The notes beneath the pieces were generated by a model, which had not been told where the DNA came from, did not search any database, and worked only from the letters and a program-made list of their open reading frames with translations. From contig JABAQN010000022.1 in the NCBI GenBank assembly GCA_019187495.1, positions 62,001 through 126,000 of the forward strand: a stretch of DNA of 64,000 nt. The letters run 5' to 3'. Every line of letters starts with the position of its first letter. Within the stretch, counting starts at the first letter, position 1. A program made the position numbers and the translations under genes. Positions 24,518 to 57,974 of the stretch are shown piece after piece. This DNA comes from Steroidobacteraceae bacterium (lineage in GTDB: Bacteria; Pseudomonadota; Gammaproteobacteria; Steroidobacterales; Steroidobacteraceae).

Positions 24518-25279
24518 CTAGAGGTTTCCCGCCTCGAAGTGCTTCCAGCCGTAGTTCGCCGGCGTCGACGCGTCGACCGGCCAGAAGCCGACGCCCGGCT
24601 GACCCTCCGCCCACGTCGTGTTCGGAGAACTCGCGCCGACCATCCAGTCGTTCTTGTAGACCTTGATGACGCCGCCCGATATTTCGGCGCGCAGCACGTC
24701 GCCATCGACAGGTGCGCCGGGCCCGGGACCTTCAAAACCGAGCGTCGTGTAATCGCCGAGTGGCCCATTCCAGCGAACGACCGCGAAATCGCCGTCGTGC
24801 CCCCACAGCACTTCATAGCCGCGCGCATTGTGCGCGGTGATCTCGAAGCGCAGCAGCAACTCCACTTCGTGCTTCGACCCGGCGGGCGAATAGCCGGCCG
24901 CGCGGTAAACGGTTCCTTGTGCGAACTGGTTCGGTTGAAAAACCGCAAGCGAGCGGTTCAGGTGCGCGATGCTGTCATCGTAGCGGCTGCCGGAGGCGCC
25001 CGAGCGCACCGACGCGAAGGCCCGGCCGAAAGCGGTCTGGGGGTTGTTCCAGTCCAGCCCCACGGCTTTCCCGCAGATCCACCTGCCGCCCTCGGACAGC
25101 GGGTTCTCGACGAGCGGGAAATCGGTGACATAGTTGCCGCCGGCGGCCGGGCGGCATGCGGTGGACGTGGAGCCGCCTCCCACGACAGCGCTTTCCGGTG
25201 GCGGACACGGCCGCTGCGCACGCACGAGCAGTGGCGCGAGCGCGCCGGCGGAGCCGAGAATGAAGTCCCTGCGTCTCAT
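24518..25279 (-). CDS. Tat-exported CPPP protein, lectin-like
   Basis: The product has 253 residues. It begins MRRRDFILGSAG, a twin-arginine signal ending near VRAQ, followed by RPCPPPESAVVGGGSTSTAC, a segment shared with two other proteins in this window (45.6 and 57.9 kb). The rest is rich in beta-prone sequence (KHEVELLLRFEITA, DFAVVRWNG, GVIKVYKNDWMVG) and resembles concanavalin-like or DUF1080 jelly rolls that bind or cleave glycans. It follows rfbG by 28 bp on the same strand. Binding or lyase activity is inferred only. Confidence 0.72.
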   Translation of the reverse strand: MRRRDFILGSAGALAPLLVRAQRPCPPPESAVVGGGSTSTACRPAAGGNYVTDFPLVENPLSEGGRWICGKAVGLDWNNPQTAFGRAFASVRSGASGSRYDDSIAHLNRSLAVFQPNQFAQGTVYRAAGYSPAGSKHEVELLLRFEITAHNARGYEVLWGHDGDFAVVRWNGPLGDYTTLGFEGPGPGAPVDGDVLRAEISGGVIKVYKNDWMVGASSPNTTWAEGQPGVGFWPVDASTPANYGWKHFEAGNL

Positions 25280-25307
25280 GCTGCCTCCACACCCGCCATG
25301 CCTCGCA

Positions 25308-26390
25308 TCATCTGTCGAGCGGGCACAGATGCAAATAGTCGTCGATCTGCGACTCGCACAGCCGGCGGGCATCCTCCCCGGCGTGGAACCGGCGAAACCA
25401 GTCCGTGGTCCATGAAACCGCCATTTCCAGTGGCAACCGCCCCGACCATCCCAGGCGGCGATGCGCCTTCTGCGAGTTCAATCGCAACTCCATCGCCTCG
25501 TGCGGATAGACGGCCGTGTCTGGCGTCCATGCCGGCTGCACACTCCACGGAGCGGCCAGAAGCTCCACCACACGCGCGACCGGCTGCATGTCGGCATCTG
25601 CCGGACCGAAATTCCAGCCTTCGGAGACGCTGCGCGGGTTGCCATACAGCGCTTCCGCGAGCGTCAGGTAACCATCCAGACAATCGAGGACATGCTGCCA
25701 CGGTCGGGTCGCGGTCGGATTGCGCAGCACCACGGGCTCCCCACGGGCGAATGCGCCGATCGAATCGGGTATCAGTTGATGCGGCGTCCAGTCACCGCCT
25801 CCGATCACATTGCCCGCACGCGCACTCGCAATCCCGATACGCTCGCCGGCCGGACTCGAAGCATCGAAAAAGGAATCCCGGTACGCATTCGCCACGAGCT
25901 CGGCGCAGGCTTTGCTGCTCGAGTAGGGATCGCGCCCACCGAGCCTGTCGATCTCGCGGTACCCCCACTCCCAGCCGCGGTTCTCGTACACCTTGTCGGT
26001 CGTGACGTTCACGACTGCGCATCGACCGGTCAATCGACGCACGCTGTCGAGCACACTGGCCGTTCCGACGACATTCGTGGAGAAAGTGTCGACGGGATCC
26101 GCATACGCATCGAGCACGACCGATTGGGCCGCGAGATGCAGGACAATATCGGGCGCAAATCGCGCGACCGCTTCCGCCAGCTTGCCGCGCTCGCGGATAT
26201 CGCCAGTGGTCGACTCCACCGAATCGGCGACACGCCCCAGTTCGTAAAGGCTCGGGTTCGTGGGCGGCGGCAACGAGTAGCCCTGCACTTGCGAACCGAG
26301 CCGCCGCAACCACAGGCATAGCCAGCTGCCCTTGAACCCCGTGTGGCCCGTAACGAACACCTTCTTGCTGCGCCAGAACTGCCGGTTCAT
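25308..26390 (-). CDS. rfbG: CDP-glucose 4,6-dehydratase
   Basis: The product has 360 residues. This SDR converts CDP-glucose to CDP-4-keto-6-deoxyglucose. Marks are VFVTGHTGFKGSWLCLWL near the start (nucleotide binding, with the RfbG-specific HTGFKGSWL), LHLAAQSVVLDAYADP, VTTDKVYENRGW, and the catalytic Tyr/Lys in DPYSSSKACAEL. It uses the product of rfbF, which is 9 kb away. The ATG at 26390 gives the family N-terminus MNRQFWRSKK. The divergent neighbour is an acyltransferase. Confidence 0.92.
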   Translation of the reverse strand: MNRQFWRSKKVFVTGHTGFKGSWLCLWLRRLGSQVQGYSLPPPTNPSLYELGRVADSVESTTGDIRERGKLAEAVARFAPDIVLHLAAQSVVLDAYADPVDTFSTNVVGTASVLDSVRRLTGRCAVVNVTTDKVYENRGWEWGYREIDRLGGRDPYSSSKACAELVANAYRDSFFDASSPAGERIGIASARAGNVIGGGDWTPHQLIPDSIGAFARGEPVVLRNPTATRPWQHVLDCLDGYLTLAEALYGNPRSVSEGWNFGPADADMQPVARVVELLAAPWSVQPAWTPDTAVYPHEAMELRLNSQKAHRRLGWSGRLPLEMAVSWTTDWFRRFHAGEDARRLCESQIDDYLHLCPLDR

Positions 26391-26502
26391 GTGCGCAGTT
26401 TCCCCGAACGTCGCGGCCAAAGGCAAAGCCGGACGCCTTTCCGGGCGTTGGATATACTTTGTGCCCGGGGCAATTCTGGCCGCGAAGGTGGGTCAGACAA
26501 TT

Positions 26503-27051
26503 ATGTTCAGACGTCACTACTGGTGGTGGCGCCACGAGCTGCGCGAGCTGGCGCGATGGTACGCGGCGCGCCTGCCCGGGAGCATCGGAGACCGTGTTCG
26601 CTCCGCGGTGCTCGGGCGGCAGCTCGCCGCCCTCGGTGAGCGCACACGGATCGGCTACGGCTTTCGGATCACGAGCCCCGAGCTCGTGCGGATCGGAGCG
26701 CGCTGCGATTTCAACGAAGGGGTCTTCATCACCGGCGGAGGCGGGGTGACTATCGGCGACTACGTGGGGCTCGGGCCTGGCGTGAAAATCTGGTCCGTGA
26801 ACCATCGCTATGAAGACCCGGACACGCCGTGGATCCTTCAAGGCCACGACAAGCTGCCGGTCGTGATCGAGGACGATGTCTGGCTCGGTGCAAACTGCTT
26901 CGTGATGCCGGGTCTCACGGTCGGCAAGGGCTCGATACTGTCGGCCGGTACGGTACTGATGAAATCCGTCCCGGCCTATGCGATTGTTGCCGGCAACCCC
27001 GGACGTCTCGTGGGCTGGCGCAAGCAGCCAGCCACTCCCGAGAAGGTGTAA
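26503..27051 (+). CDS. Hexapeptide-repeat O-acetyltransferase
   Basis: The product has 182 residues of the left-handed beta-helix acyltransferase family. Repeats run through VRIGARCDFNEGVFI, VTIGDYVGLGPGVKI, the catalytic His in WSVNHRYEDPD, VVIEDDVWLGANCFV and VGKGSILSAGTVLMK to a terminal VAGNPGRLVGW. Such enzymes transfer acetyl from acetyl-CoA to sugar hydroxyls. ATG at 26503 was preferred to upstream starts because the repeats begin soon after and the longer frame runs into rfbG. It is 3 bp from the SGNH-like gene, so one may add and the other remove or move acyl groups. Confidence 0.85.
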   Translation: MFRRHYWWWRHELRELARWYAARLPGSIGDRVRSAVLGRQLAALGERTRIGYGFRITSPELVRIGARCDFNEGVFITGGGGVTIGDYVGLGPGVKIWSVNHRYEDPDTPWILQGHDKLPVVIEDDVWLGANCFVMPGLTVGKGSILSAGTVLMKSVPAYAIVAGNPGRLVGWRKQPATPEKV

Positions 27052-27054
27052 GCA

Positions 27055-27948
27055 ATGAAATCACCAACCCGCATCCGCCGCGCTGCCGGCACCCTGCTCT
27101 TCCTGGCAATCACGGCGGCGGCAGTCAGCAGTTGCGCCCGGCAACCGCGCGAGGAGAAACCCGTGTCGATGGATCAAGTGCGCGCCGACCTGCTGACCAT
27201 GGCCGAGAGTCGCGTGTTCTTCGGCCACCACTCCGTCGGCAACAATATCCTGAAGGGAATTCGGACGCTCGCTGACAGGGCCGGCGTGCCGCTGCGGATC
27301 GAGGAAGTCGCCATCGGGCATCCCGCGCCGCAGGGTCCGGGCCTGTTTCACGCCAAGGTCGGCGAGAATCTCGACCCGGACGCCAAGATCGCAGGTTTCG
27401 CGCAGGCGCTGGGTGACGCGAATGAAGCACCCTACGACGTCGCGACATTCAAGTTCTGCTATGTCGATCTCGACGAGGGCTCGAAAGAGCGCTCGCCCGA
27501 CAAGCTGTTCACGCGCTACTCGAGCGAAATGAGCGCGATCGAGACCGCGCATCCTGGCGTCAGCATCCTGCATGCGACGATGCCGCTCATGGCTGAGCCG
27601 CCTGGCAGGAAGACCCGGCTGAAGCGCCTCCTCGGCCTGTCGACCGTCACGGATGCCGCAAACCTCGATCGCGGCGAGTTCAACCAGCGGGTGCGGGATC
27701 GTTACGCCGGGGACAAGCTGCTCGACGTCGCCCGCTTCGAGGCGACCCGGCCGGACGGCACGGTCGCCGGGTTTCCAGTGGGCGGACGCGAAGTCGAAAT
27801 GCTGGTGCTCGACTACACGAGCGATGGCGGCCATCTGAATGCGCTGGGGCAGGAAAGAGTCGCGGCCGACTTTATCCACTCGATCGCCGAGGCGCTGCGT
27901 CACCGTGGCGCTGTGCAGTCACCAGCCTTGACGACGCCTTCTCCCTGA
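27055..27948 (+). CDS. SGNH/GDSL-like lipoprotein
   Basis: The product has 297 residues with a basic start and a lipobox ending VSSC (Cys27). The mature protein contains RVFFGHHSVGNNILKGI near residue 55, a segment characteristic of a group of SGNH-like hydrolases, and GGHLNALGQERVAADFI near the C-terminus, which could hold the catalytic His. It would be a lipid-anchored envelope esterase or acyl-transfer protein acting on polysaccharide. Coupled to the O-acetyltransferase gene by a 3-bp gap. The reaction is inferred. Confidence 0.7.
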   Translation: MKSPTRIRRAAGTLLFLAITAAAVSSCARQPREEKPVSMDQVRADLLTMAESRVFFGHHSVGNNILKGIRTLADRAGVPLRIEEVAIGHPAPQGPGLFHAKVGENLDPDAKIAGFAQALGDANEAPYDVATFKFCYVDLDEGSKERSPDKLFTRYSSEMSAIETAHPGVSILHATMPLMAEPPGRKTRLKRLLGLSTVTDAANLDRGEFNQRVRDRYAGDKLLDVARFEATRPDGTVAGFPVGGREVEMLVLDYTSDGGHLNALGQERVAADFIHSIAEALRHRGAVQSPALTTPSP

Positions 27949-27968
27949 TTGTCATCGGCCGCTGATGG

Positions 27969-29879
27969 TCAGCCGCTGCGCACGGCGGCCCCATTGGCTG
28001 CCTGGATGGGCCAGTTCCGGGTGCCATCGAGCCACAGGCACATCTGCGCCACGTCAAACAGGCGCGGACCTTCGCTGCGCTCGCCCCGGCGGTGCGCCTC
28101 GAGCGCCGCGGTCACGGCGTCGTTGTTCCACAGGCCGGATTCCCGCACCACGCGGCTCGCGAGCAAGTCCCGCAGCGGCTCGAACAAAGGTCCTCTGAAC
28201 CACGCGGCCACCGAGGTCGGGAACCCGTATTTGCGAGTCTGCGCACGCACCGCTTCCGGAATCCGGCCTCGCATCGCTTCGCGCAGCAGATGCTTCGTGT
28301 AGGGGCCGCTCAACTTCCATTCCGGCCCCGCACCGAAGGCGAAATTCACGAGCCGATGGTCGAGGAACGGCAGACGCACCTCGATGCCATGCGCCATGGA
28401 ATTGCGATCGTCCACCCGCAGGTAGAGCGGCAGCGACGCCACTTCCACGGAAGCCCGAAGTGCCCCATCGAGACCCCGGGGTGCCACTTCCCGACCCGCT
28501 TCCCAATGAGCCTTCACTTCCTTCGAGACCCATGGATCGCCTGCCACGCGCGCACGCCGGCGCACGTGTGACAGTGAAGAGTAACCAGGCAGCTTTGCCA
28601 ACAATTGCTGCACGGCAATGGCGAATGCGCGCGCCTCGATCCTGCGAGGAACGCCACCCTGAACCGCAGCGAATGCCCTGATCTCCTGCCGGACCGCGCG
28701 CAGGCGCCGGGCGCGAATCAGCTCCGACCAGTAGTCGTAGAAGAAGTTGCCGTAGCCGGCGAGCACCTCATCCGCGCCCTGACCGTTGAGCAGTACGCGC
28801 ACATCGTGCGATCGGGCCAGCTCCATCAGCTTGTATCCGACCACCGACGTGAACGAATGCACCGGTTCGTCCTGATGCCACAGGTGGCGCTCGACGGACG
28901 ACCAGAGCTCGCCGGGTTGCGCCTCGAGCGGCACTTGCCGGATGCGTGTCTGCTGCAGTGTTGCCGCAATCTGCGCGGTTTCGTCGAACTCCGGAGACAG
29001 ATAACAGAACGCGTGCAAGTCCTCGACGTTTCCGCCGTTGTTCGCCCAATGATGCGCCATGCGACACGCAATCGACGTCGAATCGAGACCGCCCGAAAGC
29101 TGGACACCGATGAGCACATCACTACGCAGGCGCAATCGGATCGCGTCATCAAGAAGCGCACCGTACTCCCTCACGGGCTCCGTTTCGTCGCCACGCGCGG
29201 GATCCAGTGACCAATAGCGCCGCGTGCGCAGTCGCCCCGCGGCATCCACTTCGAATGAGGTGCCGGCCGCGATCTGCGTGACCCCCTCATAGAATGTCCG
29301 TTCGCTGTCATCCAGCCGGTCTTCGAGCAGAAAGCGCGCAATCGAGCGCCGGTCCGGCGAGAGCCGGGCAACCCCCGAGTCCCGAATGGCCTTGATCTCC
29401 GACGCAAACACCAGGTGCCGGGCGTCGCGCCAAGTGTAGAGCGGCTTGACTCCGAAGCGATCCCGCGCGCCGAAGATTCGCCGGGCGACCCTGTCATACA
29501 CCAGGAAAGCCCACATGCCGTTCAGGCGCTCGAGGCAGCGCTCGCCCCACTCCCGATAGGCGGCCAGCAATACCTCGGTATCGCCGGAGGATCGAAACAC
29601 ATGGCCGAGCGAGCGCAACTCCTGGCGCAGCTCGACGTAATTGTGGATCGCGCCGTTGAATACGAGTACAAGGCGTCCGTCCGCGCTGTGCATCGGCTGA
29701 TGCCCCGATGCGGCGAGGTCCAGAATGGCGAGACGGCGAAAGCCCACGGCAAAGGCGCCCTCGCACCAAGACCCTTCCGCATCCGGTCCCCGGTGGGCGA
29801 GTAGCGCGGTCATGCGGGCGACCACACCCGACCCGGGTTTTCCCCCGTTCAGCGAAACGATCGCCGCGAAACCACACAC
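27969..29879 (-). CDS. Asparagine synthetase B-like amidotransferase
   Basis: The product has 636 residues from GTG at 29879. This start places Cys second (MCGFAAIVS), as the class II glutaminase needs; an upstream ATG at 29915 would bury the nucleophile, so I prefer GTG. AHRGPDAEG and LVFNGAIHNYVEL complete the glutaminase site, and the synthetase domain has VQLSGGLDSTSIA and NGQGADEVLAGYGNF. It converges with the SGNH gene, with 20 bp between stops. It probably amidates a glycan or carrier-bound carboxylate; one of the three paralogues with intact Cys2. Confidence 0.87.
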   Translation of the reverse strand: MCGFAAIVSLNGGKPGSGVVARMTALLAHRGPDAEGSWCEGAFAVGFRRLAILDLAASGHQPMHSADGRLVLVFNGAIHNYVELRQELRSLGHVFRSSGDTEVLLAAYREWGERCLERLNGMWAFLVYDRVARRIFGARDRFGVKPLYTWRDARHLVFASEIKAIRDSGVARLSPDRRSIARFLLEDRLDDSERTFYEGVTQIAAGTSFEVDAAGRLRTRRYWSLDPARGDETEPVREYGALLDDAIRLRLRSDVLIGVQLSGGLDSTSIACRMAHHWANNGGNVEDLHAFCYLSPEFDETAQIAATLQQTRIRQVPLEAQPGELWSSVERHLWHQDEPVHSFTSVVGYKLMELARSHDVRVLLNGQGADEVLAGYGNFFYDYWSELIRARRLRAVRQEIRAFAAVQGGVPRRIEARAFAIAVQQLLAKLPGYSSLSHVRRRARVAGDPWVSKEVKAHWEAGREVAPRGLDGALRASVEVASLPLYLRVDDRNSMAHGIEVRLPFLDHRLVNFAFGAGPEWKLSGPYTKHLLREAMRGRIPEAVRAQTRKYGFPTSVAAWFRGPLFEPLRDLLASRVVRESGLWNNDAVTAALEAHRRGERSEGPRLFDVAQMCLWLDGTRNWPIQAANGAAVRSG

Positions 29880-30011
29880 CGCTATGGATCCTTCCTTTGC
29901 AAGTGCCCGCGTCACGCCCCTCCTTGTGTATGGAACACGAATCGGCCGCGGTGCTCAAGCAGGCGTCGAATTATGTCGGCACGGAGCTGCAGCACGGCGT
30001 GAAATGGGCAT

Positions 30012-30065
30012 GCGATGACCAACATTCGGCTGCCCGGTGCCCGGCGATGCTAACATTCGGCTGCC
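30012..30065 (+). repeat. Direct repeat pair upstream of AMP ligase
   Basis: The 14-mer AACATTCGGCTGCC occurs at 30021-30034 and 30052-30065, each preceded by GCGATG 2-3 bases earlier. The pair is 31 bp apart, about three helix turns, and ends 43 bp before the ligase ATG. This would suit a dimeric regulator, but no regulator is identified. Confidence 0.45.
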
Positions 30066-30108
30066 GCCGCTCGCGGCGCTCGATTCGGCTGTATACACAA
30101 GAGACTGC

Positions 30109-31698
30109 ATGAGCGAGTTACTCTTCGAGCTGCCGCTCCGTTCGGCCGAAAACGCACCCCATTCGCACGCGCTCGTCCACAGGGACAAATTCGTCGACTA
30201 CGCGTCGCTCGCCCAGTCCGTGAGGGATTTTTCCGCCGCCGCGACCCGTCGTCTCGGCCTCGGCAAACTCGAGCGAATCGCGGTCTATCTGCCCAAGGTT
30301 CCCGAGACCGTGATCGCGATGTTCGGCGCGGCGCACGCCGGTTGCGTGTTCGTCCCCGTAAATCCGTTGCTGAAGCCCGCGCAAGTCGGTCACATCCTGC
30401 GTGACTGCAACGTGCGCGCACTCGTCACTTCTGCGGAGCGCGCCAGCACGCTCGCCGAGGAGCTGCAAAGCTGCATCGATCTGCGGCATGTCGTGCTCAC
30501 CACATCGGACGGGCCGTCACTGCCTGCGGCTCACTACGCCACGCATCGCTGGCGCGAACTGACAGCTTCGCCCGACCATGCGAAGCCGCATCGCGTGATC
30601 GACACCGACATGGTGTCGATTTTCTATACCTCGGGCAGCACCGGGAAGCCGAAGGGAGTGGTGCTGTCGCATCGAAACATGGTGACCGGCGCGCACAGCG
30701 TCGCAGGTTACCTCGGCAATGCACCAGAAGACCGGTTGCTTGCGGTGCTGCCGTTCAGCTTCGACTACGGGTTCAGCCAGCTCTCCACCGCGTTTCATGT
30801 CGGCGCGAGCGTGACGCTGATGGATTATCTGCTTCCCCGCGACATCCTGAAGGCGCTGGCGCACGGGCGCATCACGGGCCTCGCGGGCGTGCCGCCACTC
30901 TGGGCACAACTCGCCGACCTGCGGTGGCCGGAAGCGGCTGGCGGGCATTTGCGCTACATCACGAATTCGGGCGGTGCAATGCCGGGCTCCACATTGCAGA
31001 AGTTGCGCGATGCGCTGCCTCGCACCCAGGTCTTCCTGATGTACGGGCTCACGGAGGCCTTTCGCTCCACTTTTCTGCCACCGTCCGAAATCGACAAGCG
31101 CCCCGGCTCGATGGGCAGGGCCATTCCAAATGCCGAGATTCGCGTCGTGCGCCCCGACGGCAGCGTGTGCGCGCCGGGCGAGCCGGGCGAACTCGTGCAT
31201 CGCGGATCACTGGTATCACTCGGCTACTGGAATGATCCTGCCAAGACCGCCGAGCGCTTCAAGCCGTGCCCGGGCCAGGACCCTGGCCTCGTCCTCACGG
31301 AACTGGCCGTGTGGTCGGGGGATACCGTGAAGGCCGACAAAGACGGGTTTCTTTACTTCATCGGCCGCCGCGACGAGATGATCAAGACGTCCGGCTACCG
31401 CGTCAGCCCCGGCGAGGTGGAAGAGGTGGTGTTCGCCACGGGGCTCGTGGCTGATGCCGCGGCCATCGGCGTCCCCCATCCGACTCTCGGCCAGGCGATC
31501 GTGCTGGTGGCGGCGCCCGCCGACGGCCACAGCGCGGATGATGCGCCGCTGCTCGATGCGCTACGCAAGGAGCTGCCGGCTTTCATGGTGCCCGCACAGA
31601 TCTCGTGGCGGAAATCGCTGCCCCGAAATCCGAACGGCAAGTATGACCGCGCGGGGCTTGCGGCCGAGATGAAATCACTGTTCACGGTGGAGGGATAG
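30109..31698 (+). CDS. XrtA-associated AMP-forming acyl ligase
   Basis: The product has 529 residues of the ANL superfamily and resembles the exosortase-A-associated ligase family (TIGR03098). Motifs: FYTSGSTGKPKGVVLSHRN, MYGLTEAFRSTFLPPSE, SGDTVKADKDGFLYF, RRDEMIKTSGYRVSPGEV and PRNPNGKYDRAGL with the catalytic lysine. Starting at ATG 30109 gives the family N-terminus MSELLFELP. It overlaps the PLP decarboxylase gene by one base (TAGTG), the same pairing seen in XrtA loci. It probably loads an amino- or carboxy-acid onto the carrier protein encoded at 49.7 kb. Confidence 0.85.
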   Translation: MSELLFELPLRSAENAPHSHALVHRDKFVDYASLAQSVRDFSAAATRRLGLGKLERIAVYLPKVPETVIAMFGAAHAGCVFVPVNPLLKPAQVGHILRDCNVRALVTSAERASTLAEELQSCIDLRHVVLTTSDGPSLPAAHYATHRWRELTASPDHAKPHRVIDTDMVSIFYTSGSTGKPKGVVLSHRNMVTGAHSVAGYLGNAPEDRLLAVLPFSFDYGFSQLSTAFHVGASVTLMDYLLPRDILKALAHGRITGLAGVPPLWAQLADLRWPEAAGGHLRYITNSGGAMPGSTLQKLRDALPRTQVFLMYGLTEAFRSTFLPPSEIDKRPGSMGRAIPNAEIRVVRPDGSVCAPGEPGELVHRGSLVSLGYWNDPAKTAERFKPCPGQDPGLVLTELAVWSGDTVKADKDGFLYFIGRRDEMIKTSGYRVSPGEVEEVVFATGLVADAAAIGVPHPTLGQAIVLVAAPADGHSADDAPLLDALRKELPAFMVPAQISWRKSLPRNPNGKYDRAGLAAEMKSLFTVEG

Positions 31699-32936
31699 TG
31701 ACTTCGGTGACATTCAGGCAACACGCCGCGCACCCGTGGTTTGCGGTGGATGGCGATCAGCTGCTGATCGGTGGTCGCTCGATCACCGACATCGCGGCAC
31801 AGGCCGGACAGACGCCCTTTTACGTATACGACCGTGGCGTCATGACGCGCAAGATGCACGAACTGCGCGCCGCACTGCCCTGCGAAGTACACGTGCACTA
31901 CGCGATGAAGGCCAACCCGATGCCGGCTGTCGTGAGTCACATGCTCGGCCTCGTCGACGGGCTCGACGTGGCTTCCGCCGGCGAGATGCGGGTGGCGCTC
32001 GACGCCGGCGCGGCTTCCGATCTCGTGAGCTTCGCGGGGCCCGGCAAGACCGACTCCGAGCTCGCACGCGCCGCCGCCGCCGGCATCACGGTGAACATCG
32101 AATCGGAGCGCGAGATTCGTGTGCTGGCAGCCATCGGCACGGGTACGGGACGGCGGCCGCGAGTCGCCGTGCGCGTCAATCCGGATTTCGAACTCAAGAC
32201 TTCCGGCATGAAAATGGGGGGTGGCCCGAAGCAGTTCGGTATCGATGCCGAGCGTGTGCCGGATGTGCTCGCCGCCATCGGCGCAGCACCGCTCGAGTTC
32301 CAGGGCTTCCATATTTTCAGCGGCTCGCAGAACCTGCGCGCCGAGGCGATCGTCGAGGCCCAGCAGAAGTCAGTGGCGCTCGCGCTGCGCCTCGCGCAGC
32401 ATGCGCCGTCCCCGGTGCGCACGCTCAATATCGGTGGTGGCTTCGGTATCCCCTACTTTCCGGACGAGCGACCGCTCGAGATCGCGCCCATCGCGACCAA
32501 CCTGCGCGAACTGGTGACTCGAGTTGCCCGGGCGCTGCCAGGTGCGCAGTTAGTGCTCGAACTCGGGCGCTACCTCGTCGGTGAGTCGGGCGCGTATGTT
32601 TGCCGGGTCATCGACCGCAAAGTCTCGCGCGGGCAGGTATTTCTCGTCTGCGACGGCGGGTTGCACCATCATCTCGCCGCCTCGGGGAATTTCGGACAGG
32701 TGCTTCGCAAGAACTACCCGGTGCTGATCGGCAATCGCGTACAGGGTGGTGCGCGCGAGATTGCCTCGGTTGTCGGTCCGCTGTGTACGCCGCTCGACCT
32801 GCTCGCGGACCGGATGGACCTTTCCCGCGCGGAGGAAGGCGACCTGGTCGTCGTCCTGCAAAGCGGCGCCTATGGGCTGAGTGCGAGCCCACGGGCGTTT
32901 CTCAATCACCCACCCGCGGTCGAATTGCTCGTCTAG
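31698..32936 (+). CDS. XrtA-associated PLP-dependent decarboxylase
   Basis: The product has 412 residues of fold type III (alanine-racemase/DapDC-like), resembling TIGR03099. The PLP lysine is in HYAMKANPMP near residue 74; FHIFSGSQNL, the glycine loop LNIGGGFGIPYF and GPLCTPLDLLAD (second-subunit Cys) follow. The family resembles diaminopimelate/ornithine decarboxylases, so the product may be an amine or decarboxylated amino acid attached to the glycan. The start is GTG, overlapping the ligase stop. Substrate unknown. Confidence 0.87.
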   Translation: MTSVTFRQHAAHPWFAVDGDQLLIGGRSITDIAAQAGQTPFYVYDRGVMTRKMHELRAALPCEVHVHYAMKANPMPAVVSHMLGLVDGLDVASAGEMRVALDAGAASDLVSFAGPGKTDSELARAAAAGITVNIESEREIRVLAAIGTGTGRRPRVAVRVNPDFELKTSGMKMGGGPKQFGIDAERVPDVLAAIGAAPLEFQGFHIFSGSQNLRAEAIVEAQQKSVALALRLAQHAPSPVRTLNIGGGFGIPYFPDERPLEIAPIATNLRELVTRVARALPGAQLVLELGRYLVGESGAYVCRVIDRKVSRGQVFLVCDGGLHHHLAASGNFGQVLRKNYPVLIGNRVQGGAREIASVVGPLCTPLDLLADRMDLSRAEEGDLVVVLQSGAYGLSASPRAFLNHPPAVELLV

Positions 32937-32941
32937 CCCGC

Positions 32942-36824: not shown

Positions 36825-36828
36825 CCCC

Positions 36829-44584: not shown

Positions 44585-45229
44585 CTACTTTGCTTTTCTA
44601 TTGCCCGAGGCTTCTGCTGCGGCGATCTTCCTCTTCAACCCGGACAGGGGATAACCCCCGCCGTAGGCCACTTTCGCAAGCTGCTTGGCGCGCTCCAATT
44701 CACCTGTATCGACGAAGAACAATCCAGCGACATAGTTGATCTCGATCGATTCTGGAGCCAGCCGGAGTGCCTTCTCATACTGCTCGCGCGCCTTCTCGCG
44801 CTCACCGGTCTTGTAGAGATAATTGGCGAAGATCACGTGCACGGCCTCATCGTCGGGACGAAATGCGATAGCACGGTGGAAATAGCAATCCACGGACGGA
44901 ATCGAATCATCGATCGGAATTCGCCCACCTTCGATCACGTAGCGCGCGATCGCGCTCAGCGCACGATGGTGATTCGGAAATGCCCGCAGTGTATATTTCA
45001 AATCGTCGAGTACCGTACCGGTGCTGCCGTGCCGCAGGGACTCGACGTCTGGCGTGAAGTGGAAGGTCTCGACAATCGGCAGGTTATCCCGCTTGTTGAC
45101 CGGGTCACGGTAATCGAACGGACCATATGCGTTCCGCAGCGTTCCGCAGCCGGGTACGTCCTGCGCCTGCAGCATTACGCTCCAAGCCAGCGAAACACAG
45201 GCGACAGCCATCAACGCAGCCAATCTCAC
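44585..45229 (-). CDS. Exported TPR-repeat protein
   Basis: The product has 214 residues. The N-terminal 22 form a signal peptide (MRLAALMAVACVSLAW and on to LQAQ), then VPGCGTLRNAYGPFDYRDP, and TPR-like helices cover about residues 75-195 (FANYLYKTGEREKAREQYEK). GTG at 45229 was chosen over an earlier TTG because GGGAG lies 7 bases upstream and the signal peptide starts there. It is presumably periplasmic and may scaffold the export machinery. Convergent with the FemAB-like gene. Confidence 0.72.
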   Translation of the reverse strand: MRLAALMAVACVSLAWSVMLQAQDVPGCGTLRNAYGPFDYRDPVNKRDNLPIVETFHFTPDVESLRHGSTGTVLDDLKYTLRAFPNHHRALSAIARYVIEGGRIPIDDSIPSVDCYFHRAIAFRPDDEAVHVIFANYLYKTGEREKAREQYEKALRLAPESIEINYVAGLFFVDTGELERAKQLAKVAYGGGYPLSGLKRKIAAAEASGNRKAK

Positions 45230-45592
45230 GACGTCGCTCCCAGCGCCTCCGCCATAGCCCAGGGAGGATAATACCCATGGCAAGCCAGCAGTTGAAACTT
45301 AAAGCTTCTCGCGCCAGCTCAGATGAAGCTATCTTCCCGATTGGCATAGTCCGGCCAGCCGCATTTCCCGCCACCCTGCGCGGCCACACCGGAAGCCGCC
45401 GCCGAACTGTGATCTGAGTCACCTTTGCGCCCCTTTTCATCTTCGCATGCGCTGGCAATGAACCGCCGACGGCCGTGACGCCGTCCTTGTCGTTGGATTG
45501 CGACATGGCCACCGCGTGCTTGCACCGATATAGTATGAACGGGGCGTGCTCGTTGCTTGCGCGTCGGCCACGAATCATCTGGAGAGCGGAAC
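45230..45592. other. Divergent intergenic region, 363 bp
   Basis: This gap separates the divergent TPR gene and the second CPPP protein gene. It contains a CRP-like palindrome at 45408-45423 and a TATAGT at 45529-45534 that could be a -10 for the plus-strand gene, without a convincing -35. Short open frames inside it look like chance frames, and no RNA gene is recognised. Confidence 0.5.
45408..45423. promoter_or_regulatory. CRP/FNR-like palindrome
   Basis: TGTGATCTGAGTCACC has the TGTGA-N6-TCACA layout with one mismatch in the second arm. It lies about 180 bp from each divergent start codon, between the TPR gene and the CPPP protein gene, so it could control both. No CRP-family gene is in the window, so this rests on the site alone. 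Confidence 0.4.
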
Positions 45593-46789
45593 ATGTCTAC
45601 TCGCAGGAACTTCTTGATGACGTCAGTAGGACTGGTCAGTGCTGCGGCGCCATTGATGGGCAGATCGCAAGCACTCCCTTGCCCGCCGCCCCAAGTTTCT
45701 GCTGGTGCTACCAATCCCACCGCAACGGCCTGCACCTCCTCGAACATGCCTGCGTATATCGCGTCAATGTCCCCGTTCCAAGTGCGCTCGCTGATCGGCA
45801 ACTATGCGCCTTCGAACGGCACGTCGACGCTGCGATCGCTCATGCCTTCGATGTGGTCCGGCAACGACGACATCATGCGCCCGTGGAGCGGCGGTGCGAA
45901 ATCCACAAGCGGCACGAAGATGTATGTGCACGGCGGCGGGCACAGCGATTCTTCGAACAACAGCCTGACGAGCTTTGATTTTGCCGGCAATTCTCAACCG
46001 ACGGGCTGGAGACTGGAGAATACCGGCCAGACCGGCGTGACATCGGACTTCGCGACCGGTTCGACCGGGGCACCGATATCCGTGCATACCTACGATGGCA
46101 TGGTCGACATGGGGGCGGATTTGTACCGCTTCGGAGGTTCTTCCTATCCCTCGGGCGGCTTCACGGTACAGATGCTTCGCTACAACAAGGCGGCATCGAC
46201 ATGGACTCGCCTTCCGAACTGGGCATCGTCTGCGCCACAATTCGCAGGTATGGCGGTCGGTAATCCCTCGACAGGAAAGATCCTGCTCATGGATCGTTTT
46301 GTAAGCTACTTTACGTACGCGTTTTACCGTGTTGCGACCAACGACTGGTCGACGCGGCGCAACGCGTCGGCGCAATGGGTAGGAGATGGCAGCGCTGCGT
46401 TCGACCCGGTGACGAATACGGGGCTCGTTATCGGAGCCAACAACGAGTCGGGCGTGTTCGCATTCTCGATAGGCATCAACTGGTCGGCCGAGACCATCAC
46501 ACAGACCGCACGATCCATAAATGGTATAGGTAGTGGTTGCGCGCTGATCTGGGATCCAACGCGCGCTTGCTACTGGTCCTTCGGCAGCAGCAACAACAAT
46601 TCGACGCTCTTCGAAATCAACCCAACGACATTCGCGGTAACGCCACACACGCTGACAGGGGATGCGCCGCTATTACCTGAGTCGAGTAGCCACGGACATT
46701 TTGGCCGATGGGTATTCCTGAACTCGTGGCGCGCAATAGGTTCAGTTTCGAGCCGCACTTCGCCGGCGTTTATTGTACGCTTGCCCTGA
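45593..46789 (+). CDS. Tat-exported CPPP protein, propeller-like
   Basis: The product has 398 residues. The N-terminus MSTRRNFLMTSVG is a twin-arginine signal ending near GRSQ, followed by ALPCPPPQVSAG and a second Cys (TATAC), as in the proteins at 25 and 57.9 kb. The body has repeated patterns such as GGAKSTSGTKMYVHGGGHSD, LYRFGGSSYPSGG, LLMDRFVSYFTYAFYR and CYWSFGSSNNN, suggesting a Kelch-like beta-propeller. ATG at 45593 has GGAG 8 bases upstream. Likely secreted and glycan-facing; catalytic activity unknown. Confidence 0.75.
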   Translation: MSTRRNFLMTSVGLVSAAAPLMGRSQALPCPPPQVSAGATNPTATACTSSNMPAYIASMSPFQVRSLIGNYAPSNGTSTLRSLMPSMWSGNDDIMRPWSGGAKSTSGTKMYVHGGGHSDSSNNSLTSFDFAGNSQPTGWRLENTGQTGVTSDFATGSTGAPISVHTYDGMVDMGADLYRFGGSSYPSGGFTVQMLRYNKAASTWTRLPNWASSAPQFAGMAVGNPSTGKILLMDRFVSYFTYAFYRVATNDWSTRRNASAQWVGDGSAAFDPVTNTGLVIGANNESGVFAFSIGINWSAETITQTARSINGIGSGCALIWDPTRACYWSFGSSNNNSTLFEINPTTFAVTPHTLTGDAPLLPESSSHGHFGRWVFLNSWRAIGSVSSRTSPAFIVRLP

Positions 46790-46802
46790 TACGCTTCAGG
46801 GC
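46783..46802. terminator. Hairpin between convergent genes
   Basis: GCCCTGA (46783-46789) and TCAGGGC (46796-46802) form a perfect 7-bp stem with a 6-base loop. It contains the stop codons of both convergent genes, so it could end both transcripts. No T-run is seen. Confidence 0.45.
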
Positions 46803-48097: not shown

Positions 48098-48951
48098 GAG
48101 CCGCTTCCAAACTGCTTCGCGAGCCAACGGCCGCAGCGCTGATTTAATTGCTCGAGATGGGGGCCGCCCGAGAAGGTGTGGTCGGCATCGGCCATGTCCA
48201 CAATTTCGACGCTCGGCCGAGACAGCGCGTCTTTCCAGGCTCGGTCGCGGCGGCAAAGAGCCCGAAACTCGTCTGCGGTCAGGTCGCGGCCGCTTTGCAC
48301 GACCATCACCGGCCCCGTGAACTGTGCAAGACCCGCACGCATGGAATCGATATAACCTGATGGCTCCGTATGATTTGGGCGCTGGACCGCTCGCTTGAGA
48401 TTGCCGATCAGCGCCCCGAGCGACCTGAAGAAATCGAAGTCGCCCCCCACCAACTTGCGCCAGAAGTCGACTTGACGCAGCCTTGAAGTGTAGTAGCGCT
48501 TGACGACCACTTCGGCCTCCGACCGTGCGGACCTCACCCACGGATTTATCAAGACAAGCCCTACGACCCTTGCGTCACTGCCGCAATATGCGAGGGCCGC
48601 GGAAGCCGCATCGCAGAGCCCAAACAGTACGATACCTCGCCGCGGGTGACAGGTGCGGTACAGGGCGTCTATCGCAGATCTGATGTCGCTCGAAATGTGC
48701 TCGAAACCCTTGAATTCTCCTTCGCTGTCGCCCATGCCGCGATAGTCGAACCGCAGCACAGGGTAGCCCGCCGCCGCCATCGAGCGTGCGCTCGAGACGA
48801 ACTGCCGGTGACTGCCGACGCGGTACTGCGGCCCGCCGACGACAACCAGAACAGCTACCTCGAATGGACCCGCAGCAGCGCGATGGAGTATGCCCACGAG
48901 AGTGCTCCCCTCGCACGGGAACAACAGCGGCTCTTCGATACCCTCGCTCAC
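48088..48951 (-). CDS. XrtA-associated hydrolase 1 (alpha/beta fold)
   Basis: The product has 287 residues of the alpha/beta hydrolase fold, resembling TIGR03100. PQYRVGSHRQFV forms the oxyanion region, FDYRGMGDSEG follows, the nucleophile elbow is LFGLCDAAS with Cys113 in place of Ser, and the catalytic His is in DADHTFSG. It may be a thioesterase or acyltransferase working with the adjacent carrier protein. It overlaps hydrolase 2 by 4 bp. Confidence 0.84.
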   Translation of the reverse strand: MSEGIEEPLLFPCEGSTLVGILHRAAAGPFEVAVLVVVGGPQYRVGSHRQFVSSARSMAAAGYPVLRFDYRGMGDSEGEFKGFEHISSDIRSAIDALYRTCHPRRGIVLFGLCDAASAALAYCGSDARVVGLVLINPWVRSARSEAEVVVKRYYTSRLRQVDFWRKLVGGDFDFFRSLGALIGNLKRAVQRPNHTEPSGYIDSMRAGLAQFTGPVMVVQSGRDLTADEFRALCRRDRAWKDALSRPSVEIVDMADADHTFSGGPHLEQLNQRCGRWLAKQFGSGSCP

Positions 48952-49751
48952 GAAGCCGCCACCAGTGCGGGATTCGTCACGATCTCGGTCGCCATCCAGA
49001 ATGGCTCACCCGTCACCTGCATGTGCTCGACCTTGCAGCCGATCGCGCGCGCCTTGTCGATCGCACGCTGCGTGCCCGGCGCCATGGGAGCAGTCGCGTC
49101 GGCCACCACGTCGAGCCAACGAATCGGCGCGAAAGATGGAGTTAGCGCCGCCGCCAGATCGAGGGTTTCGAGATCCGCGCACAATGCGCCTGAAAGCGTG
49201 TACCCAGCAACTTCCACGGTCTTCCCGGCCTGCAATCTGGCTCGCAGTTCGGCGACCGTTTCGTTGCGGTCCTGCTCCATGCGCGATGCCATCACGCGCA
49301 CGCGCAGGAACTGATCGATCATGCGCGCACCATTCATCACCGGCTGCCAGAAGACGGCGTGCGAGAGATCCAAATCGCGCTGCCGGGCCAGCAATGCTGC
49401 CAGTATCGCGCCCATCCGGATGCCGAGCATCGAAGTCACGCGCCAGCCCTGGGTCGCGCTCCACTCGGCAGCGGCAGCGAGATTTTCGATCCAGCTTGCG
49501 ACACGCGCCGCGGCGAACTCACCGTCGCTGTCCCCGGTCCCGAAAAGATCGATGCAGAGTACGCCCCTGCCCCTGCTGCGCTCGTGGCGCGCGAAATCCG
49601 TAACGAGCTTGCGGCTCTTGTTCATCTCCTCGGCAAACGGCGGCACGACCAGCACACACTCACCGCTGTTCTGGGTGGGCGTACGCAGCAGCGCGAACAG
49701 GCGATGGCCTGCTTCTCCGATGAACTCCGCACGCACGCCGCCTGCGATCAC
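48948..49751 (-). CDS. XrtA-associated hydrolase 2 (alpha/beta fold)
   Basis: The product has 267 residues, resembling TIGR03101. The fold is clear from VVPPFAEEMNKSRKLV and CIDLFGTGDSDGEF, but the nucleophile elbow reads LGIRMGA with Arg112 where Ser is expected, so classic hydrolase chemistry is unlikely. It may bind or position the acyl-carrier substrate for hydrolase 1. Coupled by ATGA to both neighbours (carrier protein and hydrolase 1). Confidence 0.82.
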   Translation of the reverse strand: MIAGGVRAEFIGEAGHRLFALLRTPTQNSGECVLVVPPFAEEMNKSRKLVTDFARHERSRGRGVLCIDLFGTGDSDGEFAAARVASWIENLAAAAEWSATQGWRVTSMLGIRMGAILAALLARQRDLDLSHAVFWQPVMNGARMIDQFLRVRVMASRMEQDRNETVAELRARLQAGKTVEVAGYTLSGALCADLETLDLAAALTPSFAPIRWLDVVADATAPMAPGTQRAIDKARAIGCKVEHMQVTGEPFWMATEIVTNPALVAAS

Positions 49752-49999: not shown

Positions 50000-50111
50000 G
50001 GGAAGTTTCTCCTATTGTCGAACGGACATATTGTAGCGACTGCGACCTGGTCGACCGCACACTGGTTCAAAGTTTGCTAAGGTTCACTGTTGCACGGTTG
50101 AGCGGTACTGA

Positions 50112-51920: not shown

Positions 51921-52052
51921 CCTGCATGGTGGCGCCCCGTGGATTGCACGATGGGTGATAGTCAAACAAAAGCGCGTTTGCTAACTTCGTCGCCTCATCC
52001 GCGCGCCGGATTTACCGCTATATCTGTGTAGAACGTCCCCTTCAGCTCGAGT

Positions 52053-54781: not shown

Positions 54782-55000
54782 CGTCGCCACGCCCGGGTAC
54801 GGGGAGCCTGGAGCAGATATTGTCGGAAGAGCACGGGAAGTATCCGTTTGGAACGAAATACCAGCGAGCACTCCTGCTCAAGCAGCGAGCGAATCCGGGC
54901 AGGAGACCGCCTTGGTGTCATGGAGTGCGTCCTTCGCTTCAGGATCCGAGCGGTCGAACTGGTCCTGCGTTGCGTAGATGTGGAGGCGCTGTCCCACTAG
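54782..55000. other. Gene-free stretch before insertion element
   Basis: This covers 219 bp between the GT4 stop and the left end of the insertion sequence. No recognised gene, RNA or terminator is seen. If the insertion is removed, a short minus-strand frame beginning MLVGQRLHIY would run 41 codons through the target, but I find no family for it. Confidence 0.45.
54997..55000. repeat. Target-site duplication, left copy
   Basis: CTAG immediately before the left terminal repeat; the second copy is at 56701-56704. A 4-bp duplication fits the IS1380 family. Confidence 0.8.
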
Positions 55001-55020
55001 CCTGCGCCATGCATGAAGAG
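55001..55020 (+). repeat. Left terminal inverted repeat of the IS
   Basis: Begins CCTGC and matches the right end at 14 of 20 positions. The first five bases are identical in both ends. Confidence 0.75.
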
Positions 55021-55220
55021 ATCGATTCTCGTGATCATGGATCGGTGCCTTGCGAGGTTGAGGCGTGATATCGATGCAGGGCGATGATTGTGTCATCGGT
55101 TGCGGTCGCGATCACCGATTTGTCACGGCGCGAGTCGGTTGGGGTGAGATTTCGGCGACGGGTGTTCGACGTGGCCCTCGTCGGTCACGGTACACGGCGG
55201 TGAGCGTCAGTCCGACGGCG

Positions 55221-56597
55221 CTACGCGGGCGCGGCGCCGAGGCTTCTGGCGATGATCTGCCAGTCGTGGCGGTGAGCGGCGGTGGCGGGCAGGTGCAGTA
55301 CGATGCGCCGCACCGAGGATTCGACCCAGGCGCCGAGCTTGCAGAGGTGCTCGCGCAGGGTGCTGACCTGGGCGCGGCGCAAGGCGGTCCGCGCGGCGCG
55401 CAGGCGCAATTCCTGATACAGCGCGTAGGCGGCGGCGGTCAGGAGTCCGCGCAGCTGATTGGCGAGGAAGCGAGTGCAACTGGTGCGATCGATCTCGAGC
55501 CCGTGGTGCAGCTCTTTTATCCTGTTCTCGACATCCCCGCGGGCGCAGTAGATCGCCTCGTACAGATGCTGGGGCGAGTGCTTCAAGTTGGTCACCACGA
55601 AGCGCGGGTTGTCCTTGGGCTCGCGGCCGGGATGGCGCACGACTTCGGCCTTGATGATCACCCGCCGACGCTCGGGCCAGGTACCGGCCGCGTAGCGGCA
55701 CTCGCCGTAGAGGTGCGCGGTCTGCCCCGATTCGCGCGACAGCCGTCGGGCGCTGCCCATCAGCCGCGCCGCGCGGCGCTTGAGGACCTTGTTTTTGGCC
55801 ATCGCCACCACGTACTCGAGGGCCTCGCGCTCGAGGAACGCGAAGATCTCGGGCGTGGCGTAACCGCCATCGAGCCGCACCCGCAGCCGCGCCCGCGGGA
55901 ACGCGGTGCGCAACCGCGGCAGCAGCCGCGACAGGATCCCGAGTGCACCGACCGCGGCAGCGACATTGCCGGGACGCAGCACGTAGGCGAACAGGTACTG
56001 CTCGGGCTCGTCGTTGAAGGTGAGGAACCCGGCCACCGGCAGGTAGCACCAGCTGTCGTAGTGGCCGTTGAAGAACGTGAGCTGCTGCGCGCCGTGCGTC
56101 GGATCGTCGGTGGGATCGAGATCGATCGTGATCCGCTTGACCTTACGCTTGAGGCGCCGACGGTGTCGCTCGATCACCGCGTCGGCCAGGGCGATCCCCA
56201 TCCGATACAGGTCCGCTCGCCGCACCGCGTTCTCGAACCGCGACAAGGTCGGCTGCGAGGCAAGCTCCTCGTCACCGACCGGATCGCGACCACCGAGCAG
56301 CTTCTGGATCGGGTCGGCTGCCAGGCGGCTCGCGTCATTGCCATCCGGATAGCCGCAGGCGATTGCGTACAGACGCTGGCGCAGCAGATCACCGATGGCG
56401 TGGCGGATCTTGCCGCACTGGCGCCGATCCTCGATGCCGCCGATCAATGCCTCCGTGAGGCCGACCCGCCGGTCACACGCCTGCAGCAGAATCGCTCCGC
56501 CGTCGGAGCTGGCGTGCCGTTGGTCAAACTTCGCCACCACCGGCTTGTCGCCCAAATCTGAAAACAGGACAGACTGTCGTGTGCTATCGTTGTTCAC
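55221..56597 (-). CDS. IS1380-family transposase
   Basis: The product has about 458 residues of the DDE_Tnp_1 group. The N-terminus (SSDGGAILLQACDRRVGL, then RQRLYAIACGYPDGNDA) is characteristic of IS1380. Catalytic acids lie in RITIDLDPTDDPTHG (first Asp), RVRLDGGYATPEI (second Asp) and RGDVENRIKELHHG (Glu). GTG at 56597 was chosen by comparison with the family; an in-frame GTG at 56648 would add 17 residues. No frameshift or stop is seen, so the element may be active. Confidence 0.92.
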   Translation of the reverse strand: MNNDSTRQSVLFSDLGDKPVVAKFDQRHASSDGGAILLQACDRRVGLTEALIGGIEDRRQCGKIRHAIGDLLRQRLYAIACGYPDGNDASRLAADPIQKLLGGRDPVGDEELASQPTLSRFENAVRRADLYRMGIALADAVIERHRRRLKRKVKRITIDLDPTDDPTHGAQQLTFFNGHYDSWCYLPVAGFLTFNDEPEQYLFAYVLRPGNVAAAVGALGILSRLLPRLRTAFPRARLRVRLDGGYATPEIFAFLEREALEYVVAMAKNKVLKRRAARLMGSARRLSRESGQTAHLYGECRYAAGTWPERRRVIIKAEVVRHPGREPKDNPRFVVTNLKHSPQHLYEAIYCARGDVENRIKELHHGLEIDRTSCTRFLANQLRGLLTAAAYALYQELRLRAARTALRRAQVSTLREHLCKLGAWVESSVRRIVLHLPATAAHRHDWQIIARSLGAAPA

Positions 56598-56680
56598 GCA
56601 AAAGCCTCTTGAGTGCCGAAAAGCCTTGTTGCAAAGCTTTTTTAGCACAATGGAGGCTTTTGTTTCTCAGTACCTCACAC

Positions 56681-56700
56681 CGCTTCGCGCATAAAGCAGG
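56681..56700 (-). repeat. Right terminal inverted repeat of the IS
   Basis: The complement reads CCTGCTTTATGCGCGAAGCG, matching the left end. It is followed directly by CTAG at 56701-56704. Confidence 0.75.
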
Positions 56701-56704
56701 CTAG
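56701..56704. repeat. Target-site duplication, right copy
   Basis: CTAG directly after the right terminal repeat, identical to the copy at 54997-55000. Confidence 0.8.
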
Positions 56705-56789
56705 CATCGGTTGCGTACCCGTCGCCGGCTCTCGCGTAACGTAATGTGGTTTCGCGCACGGTCCGTGGATTCCTGATCCACGCTGCCCG

Positions 56790-57974
56790 TCAGGCTGTCG
56801 GGCAGGGGATGAACTGCTTCGAGAAAATGACCTGATCGTAGTCGAAATCGAATGCCGTGGTCGTGAACGTCGACCCGTTATGATAGATCGCGAGAATCAG
56901 TGCATTCCAACCCGGCAGACCCGGCGCACCCACGCTATTCGATCCTCCGTCAAAGTGCCCCGTATAGAGTGTGTCCCATATCTTGGTGTAGCTCGTCTCG
57001 CCCTGATGCGCCGCCCAGACCTCGATGCGCGTGCGGTTGCTGCCGGTGCCGCCGTTCGTGCCCGGCGTGACGTGGTATAGCAGCGTATCCCACCCTCCCG
57101 AGTATCGCCATGCGACGTTCAGGTTGGAGATGGTGACGGACTCGTTGTCTTGCGAGCCGCCGAATGGGTTGTAATTGTATCCGCCATACATGCGATGGCG
57201 ACCGTACTTGCCGACGACATCCTCGCCTGCGGCCTGACCGTAGGTCACTATTTCCTGTGCCGTGTACGAGCTGTTCGTGGTCGTGAACCAGACATTCTTA
57301 CCGGTGATATAACTGTAGTTACCCGAATCTGGCGGCGGCCCCGGCCGCTGCGCGCGTCGCACGCGGACCTGCAGCCAGAAATCGTGCCCCTGAAACTTGC
57401 CGGAATACGACGCCTGATGCGCCGGATGCATGTACCAGCCCGGGTTAGATTCATTACCCCAGTTGTAAAGCACGCTACCATTCTGTGTCGCGACGAATGC
57501 GACGGGTGCTATCGTGCCGCTCGCGCCCGGATCATCTACCCCGCGACCGTTGCCCGCACCTGTCAGCGGATTGAACGGTCGATGCCAATAAGATCCACCG
57601 CGACCAGACGCATTACCGAGCGGATACGCGAGCCGCATGAACCCACCGCCGTCCGCGCCACCGCTCGCCTGATGCGTGACGTACTGACCACCAGGCCCAA
57701 GTCCGCCAGGATCGTTTCCCGGACCATTGGTCCAGCGGAACTGGTTGACCTCGGCCGCCGAATCAAAGTTGTGATGCCAGACGACACCCGCGCCGGCGAT
57801 GCGCGCAGCCCAATCCGCCGCCACCGATTCGTTCGCACAGGTTGTGGACGCGGTAGTGCCACCACCAGCGCTGACGCCGGGTGGAGGGCAGGGCTTTGAT
57901 TGCCCGAAGCCCACGACGGGAATCGCCGCTCCCGCCATCGTGGCGGTGCTCACCAGGAAGTCTCTTCGCTTCAT
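56790..57974 (-). CDS. Tat-exported CPPP protein, beta-rich
   Basis: The product has 394 residues. The Tat signal MKRRDFLVSTATM ends near VGFGQ and is followed by SKPCPPPGVSAGGGTTASTTC, the fullest version of the segment shared with the proteins at 25 and 45.6 kb. The body is rich in Gly, Asn, Tyr and Trp (VWHHNFDSAAEVNQFRW, SYWHRPFNPL, FWLQVRVRRAQRPG), with an overall look of a large jelly-roll lectin or polysaccharide lyase. A ribosome site AGGAGC precedes the ATG at 57974. Activity is not established. Confidence 0.75.
   Translation of the reverse strand: MKRRDFLVSTATMAGAAIPVVGFGQSKPCPPPGVSAGGGTTASTTCANESVAADWAARIAGAGVVWHHNFDSAAEVNQFRWTNGPGNDPGGLGPGGQYVTHQASGGADGGGFMRLAYPLGNASGRGGSYWHRPFNPLTGAGNGRGVDDPGASGTIAPVAFVATQNGSVLYNWGNESNPGWYMHPAHQASYSGKFQGHDFWLQVRVRRAQRPGPPPDSGNYSYITGKNVWFTTTNSSYTAQEIVTYGQAAGEDVVGKYGRHRMYGGYNYNPFGGSQDNESVTISNLNVAWRYSGGWDTLLYHVTPGTNGGTGSNRTRIEVWAAHQGETSYTKIWDTLYTGHFDGGSNSVGAPGLPGWNALILAIYHNGSTFTTTAFDFDYDQVIFSKQFIPCPTA

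Follow-up and report, generated by a model that had tools for sequence, protein, structure and literature searches.

PEP-CTERM tags are C-terminal tags found in exopolysaccharide (EPS)-producing bacteria (PMC1569441), and the passages of that paper on PEP-CTERM contain no N-terminal Cys segment. Here we describe an N-terminal leader that is encoded three times in a 64,000-nucleotide stretch of DNA from a Steroidobacteraceae bacterium (contig JABAQN010000022.1, positions 62,001 to 126,000; hereafter the window), whose own 3.57-Mb genome is denoted G000. The leader resembles the PEP-CTERM/XrtA arrangement in that a single short tag is joined to many unrelated bodies in EPS producers and its genes lie in such loci, but it differs in being N-terminal, linked to a twin-arginine translocation (Tat) signal and flanked by Cys. 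Lipoprotein signals followed by a stalk are likewise N-terminal, and a metagenome-assembled genome of Bdellovibrionota carries one of the same bodies in that manner; the present leader, in contrast, has Pro before the Cys, a Tat-type signal and a second invariant Cys. Phage receptor-binding and depolymerase tail proteins similarly combine an exchangeable N-terminal attachment part with a polysaccharide-recognising body, and two of the bodies described here occur on phage contigs themselves; here, however, an export leader from a bacterial EPS locus takes the place of the attachment part, and the bodies have no known enzyme activity. A literature search, mostly outside subscription journals, found no description of such a leader. 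We propose, with a probability of about 0.5, that it is a portable N-terminal delivery module for proteins of XrtA-type EPS loci, docking their bodies onto a common partner.

The three genes lie where a sequence-only reading of the window had placed them, one on the forward and two on the reverse strand, the strands being added here, and each start codon is preceded by what appears by eye to be a GGAG-type stretch. The proteins (leader proteins 1, 2 and 3, representing the families termed lamg, kelch and jelly; Table 1) all have the Tat-type signal (RRxF), PCPPP and second Cys ascribed to them by that reading, in the arrangement C-x16-C, with likely mature N-termini QRPCPPP, QALPCPPP and QSKPCPPP. 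None matched NCBIfam for PEP-CTERM at E 1, and by eye their C-termini (KHFEAGNL, SPAFIVRLP and KQFIPCPTA) are devoid of a hydrophobic segment with a basic tail. A profile of the three leaders retrieved three strong matches from G000 (E 5.6e-32, 1.0e-30 and 1.4e-27); the fourth-best match, at E 0.004, was a transporter-like frame of 712 residues without the Cys pair. The bare CPPP motif was rejected as a signal, given 168 matches to its coding DNA in the genome (80 forward and 88 reverse); with CPPP-coding DNA so common, the motif on its own says little.

Evidence for one shared leader came from holding out each family in turn and running a profile of the other two, built from the window's genus, against 3543 open reading frames (ORFs). 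Whole-leader profiles recovered the window proteins of the held-out family (jelly, E 6.8e-16; kelch, 1.0e-9; lamg, 1.5e-10) along with its other members. When the Tat half was removed, the window proteins were retrieved at E 3.9e-5 (jelly), 0.17 (kelch) and 4.0e-5 (lamg), and within the genus 4/4 jelly, 3/4 kelch and 3/4 lamg members were recovered at E <=0.5, the best unrelated frames scoring E 0.042 to 0.067. Since held-out families are recovered without the Tat half, the part behind it is itself shared by the families, least strongly so for kelch. When whole families were aligned with hhalign, jelly and lamg matched over residues 1-47 only (E 3.2e-12) and jelly and kelch over residues 1-59 only (E 5.4e-12); BLAST of body against body across families gave no match at E 0.01. 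Both results bear out the earlier view that the leader is followed by unrelated domains. For jelly and kelch, conservation of the part that follows the Tat signal equals or exceeds that of the body.

The leader also lacks a counterpart among the known families searched. No Pfam or NCBIfam model searched matched the segment behind the Tat signal, in keeping with the earlier remark that no described family covers it; Pfam returned for the leaders only Tat models and one chance-like match (DEC-1_N, E 0.16). Comparison of the leader profile with the PDB yielded matches at chance level, the best at E 0.22 and several of them N-termini of antibody light chains, and a plasmid search gave no match for one leader nor for leader protein 1. 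The twin-arginine motif, RRxF or RRxV/L, is present in each of the 19 leaders whose start is complete, and Pfam TAT_signal matches 10 of 17 leaders at E <=5 (best 1.6e-4), leader protein 1 scoring below the cut-off. Neither of the two outcomes that the sequence-only reading had named as refuting came about: the strong matches do not fall on random Tat proteins, and no known domain extending into the body accounts for the segment.

To describe the distribution of the leader we interrogated overlapping sets of 148 relatives and of 217 family, 346 order, 369 class and 398 phylum genomes, the analysis as a whole comprising 1956 genome look-ups with repeats included; the first-pass search scored part of the candidates in many genomes, so that leader counts are lower bounds. 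At least 21 leader proteins were found in 10 genomes, on at least four types of body. The family set contained strong leaders at 18 places in nine genomes (E <=3.2e-14); G676, from another family, has two adjacent leader genes (E 3.5e-10 and 6.1e-7), and G040 has a second leader gene, below thresholds, that was spotted on reading its locus. The leader is present in 5 of the 7 genomes of the window's genus and recurs in other genera, there with a further body type. The phylum sample gave no match besides G000 at E 1e-6, and the class sample, besides G000, only weak matches in six genomes (E 3e-5 to 8e-4).

In every genome in which the leader was found, it lies with EPS genes. The window locus encodes system genes of the XrtA type (Table 1), and past the window end lie PrsK (over cut-off) and an exosortase, the latter 14.6 kb beyond the end and matching TIGR02602 over cut-off and TIGR03109 at 187.8 vs 208 bits; an XrtA-type exosortase and its system genes are thus both found at this locus. 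Leader genes adjoin homologues of this EPS locus in 10/10 leader genomes. The exosortase lies on the leader contig in seven of these, about 12 to 53 kb away, and on another contig in G003 and G056; none was found in G040. Strong leader-profile matches therefore cluster with XrtA/EPS genes and are joined to varied bodies across the 10 genomes, which answers the check suggested by the earlier reading. That reading's proposal of a sorting, anchoring or disulfide tag specific to this EPS system is borne out insofar as one leader is carried by unrelated bodies and, in the genomes searched, in XrtA-type EPS loci only, whereas sorting or anchoring is a role that we infer.

The bodies, in turn, occur without the leader, first on phage contigs. 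A query of IMG/VR with leader protein 2 retrieved contig 3300048834_000097, which has terminase- and head-tail-adaptor-like genes and encodes a 635-residue protein ending in the jelly body, followed directly by a 361-residue kelch protein. Five further contigs (L175 to L179) contain the jelly body or its start; by PHROGs, L175 to L178 have terminase and/or portal genes and L179 a lytic tail protein. The jelly body of L175 is 81% identical to leader protein 3 over 349 residues and is followed by a kelch-like gene, the jelly and kelch genes are adjacent in L179, and in L177 both bodies are fused in one protein of 800 residues. The leader motif was absent from all seven phage proteins examined (that of L175 is cut at the contig start), and homology to the phage bodies begins near the end of the leader. 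In a tree of jelly bodies, L175 groups with G000 and G004 (100/99) and L180 with G005 (97/96); jelly bodies thus passed on two or more occasions between phages and the window's genus, in either direction, the deep rows of the tree being long. A PcRGLX-like body, present in leader proteins of other genomes (see below), is found on two viral contigs, L181 with a tail protein and L182 with terminase, portal, protease and head genes, with homology from residues 68-71, behind the leader. No lamg body was found among the viral contigs, and the named phages of INPHARED gave no match for leader protein 3 nor for the phage kelch protein.

Other bacteria bear the same bodies behind different starts. On a contig binned as Bdellovibrionota, a jelly body (52%) follows a lipoprotein-type start and a Pro/Thr-rich stalk, and G067 has a jelly body without the leader (E 3.6e-11). 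Within the order, the kelch body, as defined by the profile of the window's family, occurs in 9 of 148 genomes; that profile derives from the window's genus and does not retrieve distant kelch proteins of G040, G056 and G676. Kelch bodies without the leader have general secretory (Sec)-type starts in G067 and G097 and a lipoprotein-like start in G128, and are part of giant frames of 1356 to 2815 residues in G093 and G107. The jelly profile did not find a jelly domain in these giants, which leaves phage contig L177 as the single support for a kelch-jelly fusion. To judge from these sequences, the leader is a separable host delivery module, because the same bodies occur without it on phage contigs and behind other bacterial starts.

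Two of these settings have features of their own. In the G093 giants (L147, ORF from 401 on the forward strand, 2814 residues; L152, ORF from 9187 in minus-strand numbering, 1356 residues) the kelch domain comes first; the larger one, in which many immunoglobulin (Ig)-like repeats are seen by eye, sits in an EPS locus, and the two end in C-terminal tails that we take to be GlyGly-CTERM-like. In four genes of the Bdellovibrionota contig, L119 (3107-6830, reverse strand, and 9635-11035, forward strand), two sorts of bodies follow a common lipoprotein-type start (FNNCG) with a Pro/Thr-rich stalk, so that here, too, a single leader is joined to more than one body. On inspection by eye, two L119 neighbours look like kelch proteins, and they match the kelch protein of phage contig L179 (E 1e-28 and 2e-14); hhalign gave no support for their relation to the window's kelch family, and the jelly profile did not find the second candidate jelly gene.

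Behind the Tat signal, the leader is defined by its two Cys, both present in all 20 proteins tabulated (left out were the partial G003 protein and one from L115, possibly a further genome). They are 16 residues apart in 15 proteins and 14, 15, 15, 18 and 18 residues apart in the remaining five. The 15 leaders with a spacing of 16 have Pro at +2 (15), Gly at +9 (13), Gly at +10 (12) and Thr at +15 (13), and the segment consensus is roughly C-[PAM]-P-[PASG]-x-[VLM]-[SA]-[AVI]-x-G-G-x-[ST]-[AST]-[ST]-T-x-C; Gly-Gly is near the centre of the 16-residue spacer, where the turn of a hairpin would sit. A disulfide between the two Cys is likely, because both are invariant and one member, the kelch protein of G001, has no Cys beyond them. 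AlphaFold2 predicted short strands at positions 10-12 and 16-18 of the 34-residue segment, with a mean predicted local distance difference test (pLDDT) of 65 and a predicted template modelling score of 0.24, a model compatible with a hairpin and not proof of one; when leader protein 3 was modelled in full, its residues 1-47 had pLDDT <50.

The module is probably a Tat-exported, disulfide-closed N-terminal hairpin. It would be exported by virtue of the RRxF signal and cleaved at an AxA-like site, so that the mature protein would begin with QxxPC; its two Cys would close a short hairpin, which would stay outside the body fold and attach the body to a shared partner in EPS export or in the matrix. 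The bodies, given their fold and their place on phage tail proteins, may act, by binding or cleavage, on polysaccharide made by the cell itself. Docking at the EPS machinery is the role that we infer as most likely.

Several results weigh against this reading. Profiles stripped of the Tat half missed one member each of the lamg and kelch families and scored the window kelch protein below an unrelated frame at E 0.064; the lamg segment is less conserved than the lamg body (mean identity 0.57 vs 0.77); the hairpin model is weak by both of its scores; and leader genome G057 has a distant kelch-like Tat protein without the CPPP segment. The variability of the lamg leaders is also expected if the segment is nothing more than a signal peptide and spacer passed down from the 5' end of some suitable Tat gene and re-used to export captured bodies, with no role for CPPP. 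The Tat half by itself recovers the held-out families too, and bodies common to host and phages, for example phage tail domains, suit such capture; but the two Cys and the central Gly-Gly are kept over four body types and two bacterial families, and a passive spacer would hardly keep C-x16-C, which makes this explanation unlikely, if the most credible of the alternatives. Less probable by a good measure is that the segment forms a structural cap or strand required by the bodies for folding or oligomers and not a docking tag. A hairpin could pack against a beta-rich body, and the body alignment begins directly behind the segment, yet one cap would hardly serve unrelated folds, jelly bodies of phages and Bdellovibrionota and the kelch body of G097 exist without it, and the model of leader protein 3 displays no confident packing of segment on body. 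Lipidation of the first Cys, giving an unusual Tat lipoprotein anchor, is very improbable: a lipobox has Gly, Ala or Ser immediately before the Cys, and although the Bdellovibrionota jelly body on its lipoprotein-type start and stalk implies that membrane anchoring is tolerated at this end, the leaders have Pro there in 18 of 20 cases (Ser in two), with an AxA-like site by eye upstream of the first Cys and a second Cys that is invariant.

Predicted folds of the bodies differ in how well they can be assigned. The body of leader protein 1, taken for a jelly roll in the earlier reading, has no family or PDB match. That of leader protein 2 is kelch-like: Pfam kelch matches are below cut-offs, and its profile reaches kelch chains in the PDB at E 1.2e-4. 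The model computed for the whole of leader protein 3 (mean pLDDT 51) has, from about residue 50, a concanavalin A (ConA)-like jelly roll that compares with 2zzj at VIA Z 13.7 and 3.4 A over 211 residues. The predicted fold recalls polysaccharide lyase family 20 (glucuronan lyase) and other ConA-like glycan enzymes, but identity is 10%, the model is of low confidence and many other ConA-like families score about equally. A fourth type of body is found in leader proteins of G057 (728 residues) and G251 (713 residues), where the PcRGLX N-terminal domain matches below threshold (E 9e-4 and 4e-4; 19.5 and 20.7 bits vs a cut-off of 22.1) and no PDB match was obtained. The body of the first G040 leader protein, missed by the jelly profile, is possibly a fifth type.

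Two candidate receptors for the leader were rejected. The tetratricopeptide repeat (TPR) protein encoded beside the kelch gene has homologues in 15 of 148 genomes, including all nine with the kelch body (5/5 outside the genus), an association whose Fisher values take no account of relatedness; it also occurs in G067, G093, G097, G107 and G128, in which no strong leader was found. Since it tracks the kelch body even there, it is at best a partner of that body. Matches to an Ig-fibronectin type III (FN3) lipoprotein occur in 9/9 of the listed leader genomes and number up to 29 in a single genome, but G067, G086, G097 and G110 have them as well.

In sister loci, lone tails resembling strand A of FN3 (PPTNLxV type; PPxxxGxRxQ in G067) end exported-looking proteins of differing kinds (Table 1), and four tails checked showed no FN3 continuation past the stop codon. 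The genomes concerned also encode Ig-FN3 proteins, in some of which FN3 seemingly starts from strand B; a lone tail together with an Ig-FN3 protein lacking strand A looks, in terms of sequence, like a donor-strand tag and its acceptor. The Pfam fn3 match starts at position 16 of 84 in G000, suggesting a missing strand A, and at position 5 in G067; the Ig-FN3 candidate of G097 has no Pfam fn3 match. The tail pattern occurs at 5 of 1957 ORF ends vs 0.2 expected, a descriptive figure, the pattern having been written after the first four tails; one of the five (L126, 198 residues) was judged spurious, and two G067 tails fall outside the strict pattern. It is conceivable, though improbable, that several docking tags of the strand type exist and that the leader is among them, its PPxxVSV-GG hairpin plugging an Ig-FN3 acceptor by donor-strand complementation as the PPTNLxV tails would do in sister XrtA loci, where kelch and jelly are among the bearers and lipoproteins with a seemingly incomplete Ig-FN3 part lie nearby; the bodies would then switch between phage tail and host EPS by plug exchange alone.

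Further genes in the window accompany those of the leader proteins. A lipoprotein-like gene near leader protein 1 (27055-27948, forward strand) is kept in G004 and G005 and has no NCBIfam match and no Pfam match above cut-off. Beside leader protein 3 lies a frame that, by eye from its start sequence, looks like an insertion sequence (IS)1380-type transposase (55221-56648, reverse strand). Paralogues of the asparagine-synthase-type amidotransferase recur in this one EPS locus, at 36829-38550 (reverse) and 50112-51920 (forward) besides that listed in Table 1, with others recognised by start sequence at 10118-12058 and 27969-29915 (both reverse).

Table 1. Leader genes, their Cys segments, EPS-locus genes and FN3-like tails (window positions unless a contig is named)
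Feature	Position	Strand
Leader protein 1 (lamg), 253 residues, body without family match	24518..25279	-
Leader protein 1, C-x16-C segment (C25-C42)	25154..25207	-
Leader protein 2, 398 residues, kelch-like propeller body	45593..46789	+
Leader protein 2, C-x16-C segment (C30-C47)	45680..45733	+
Leader protein 3, 394 residues, ConA-like jelly-roll body	56790..57974	-
Leader protein 3, C-x16-C segment (C29-C46)	57837..57890	-
Exosortase A system acyl-CoA ligase (TIGR03098, over cut-off)	30037..31698	+
Exosortase A system pyridoxal phosphate (PLP) decarboxylase (TIGR03099, over cut-off)	31698..32936	+
TPR protein, exported-looking, beside kelch gene	44585..45283	-
Exosortase A system hydrolase 2 (TIGR03101, over cut-off)	48948..49751	-
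XrtA/PEP-CTERM system amidotransferase (TIGR03108, over cut-off)	61494..63395	-
FN3-like tails, G067	L151, ORFs from 3900 and 5000	+
FN3-like tails, G097	L153, ORFs 374 and 3545	minus-strand numbering
FN3-like tail, G110	L127:11956-13311	+
FN3-like tail, G251	L172, ORF from 15080	+

If the leader is a docking tag, these organisms would possess, in addition to the C-terminal sorting tags of XrtA EPS loci, a route that is N-terminal and linked to Tat. Bodies of up to 81% identity link host EPS loci with phage tail regions, and cell and phage appear to share one pair of proteins, perhaps acting on the same polysaccharide. The bodies are accordingly candidate enzymes or lectins whose substrate may be predictable.

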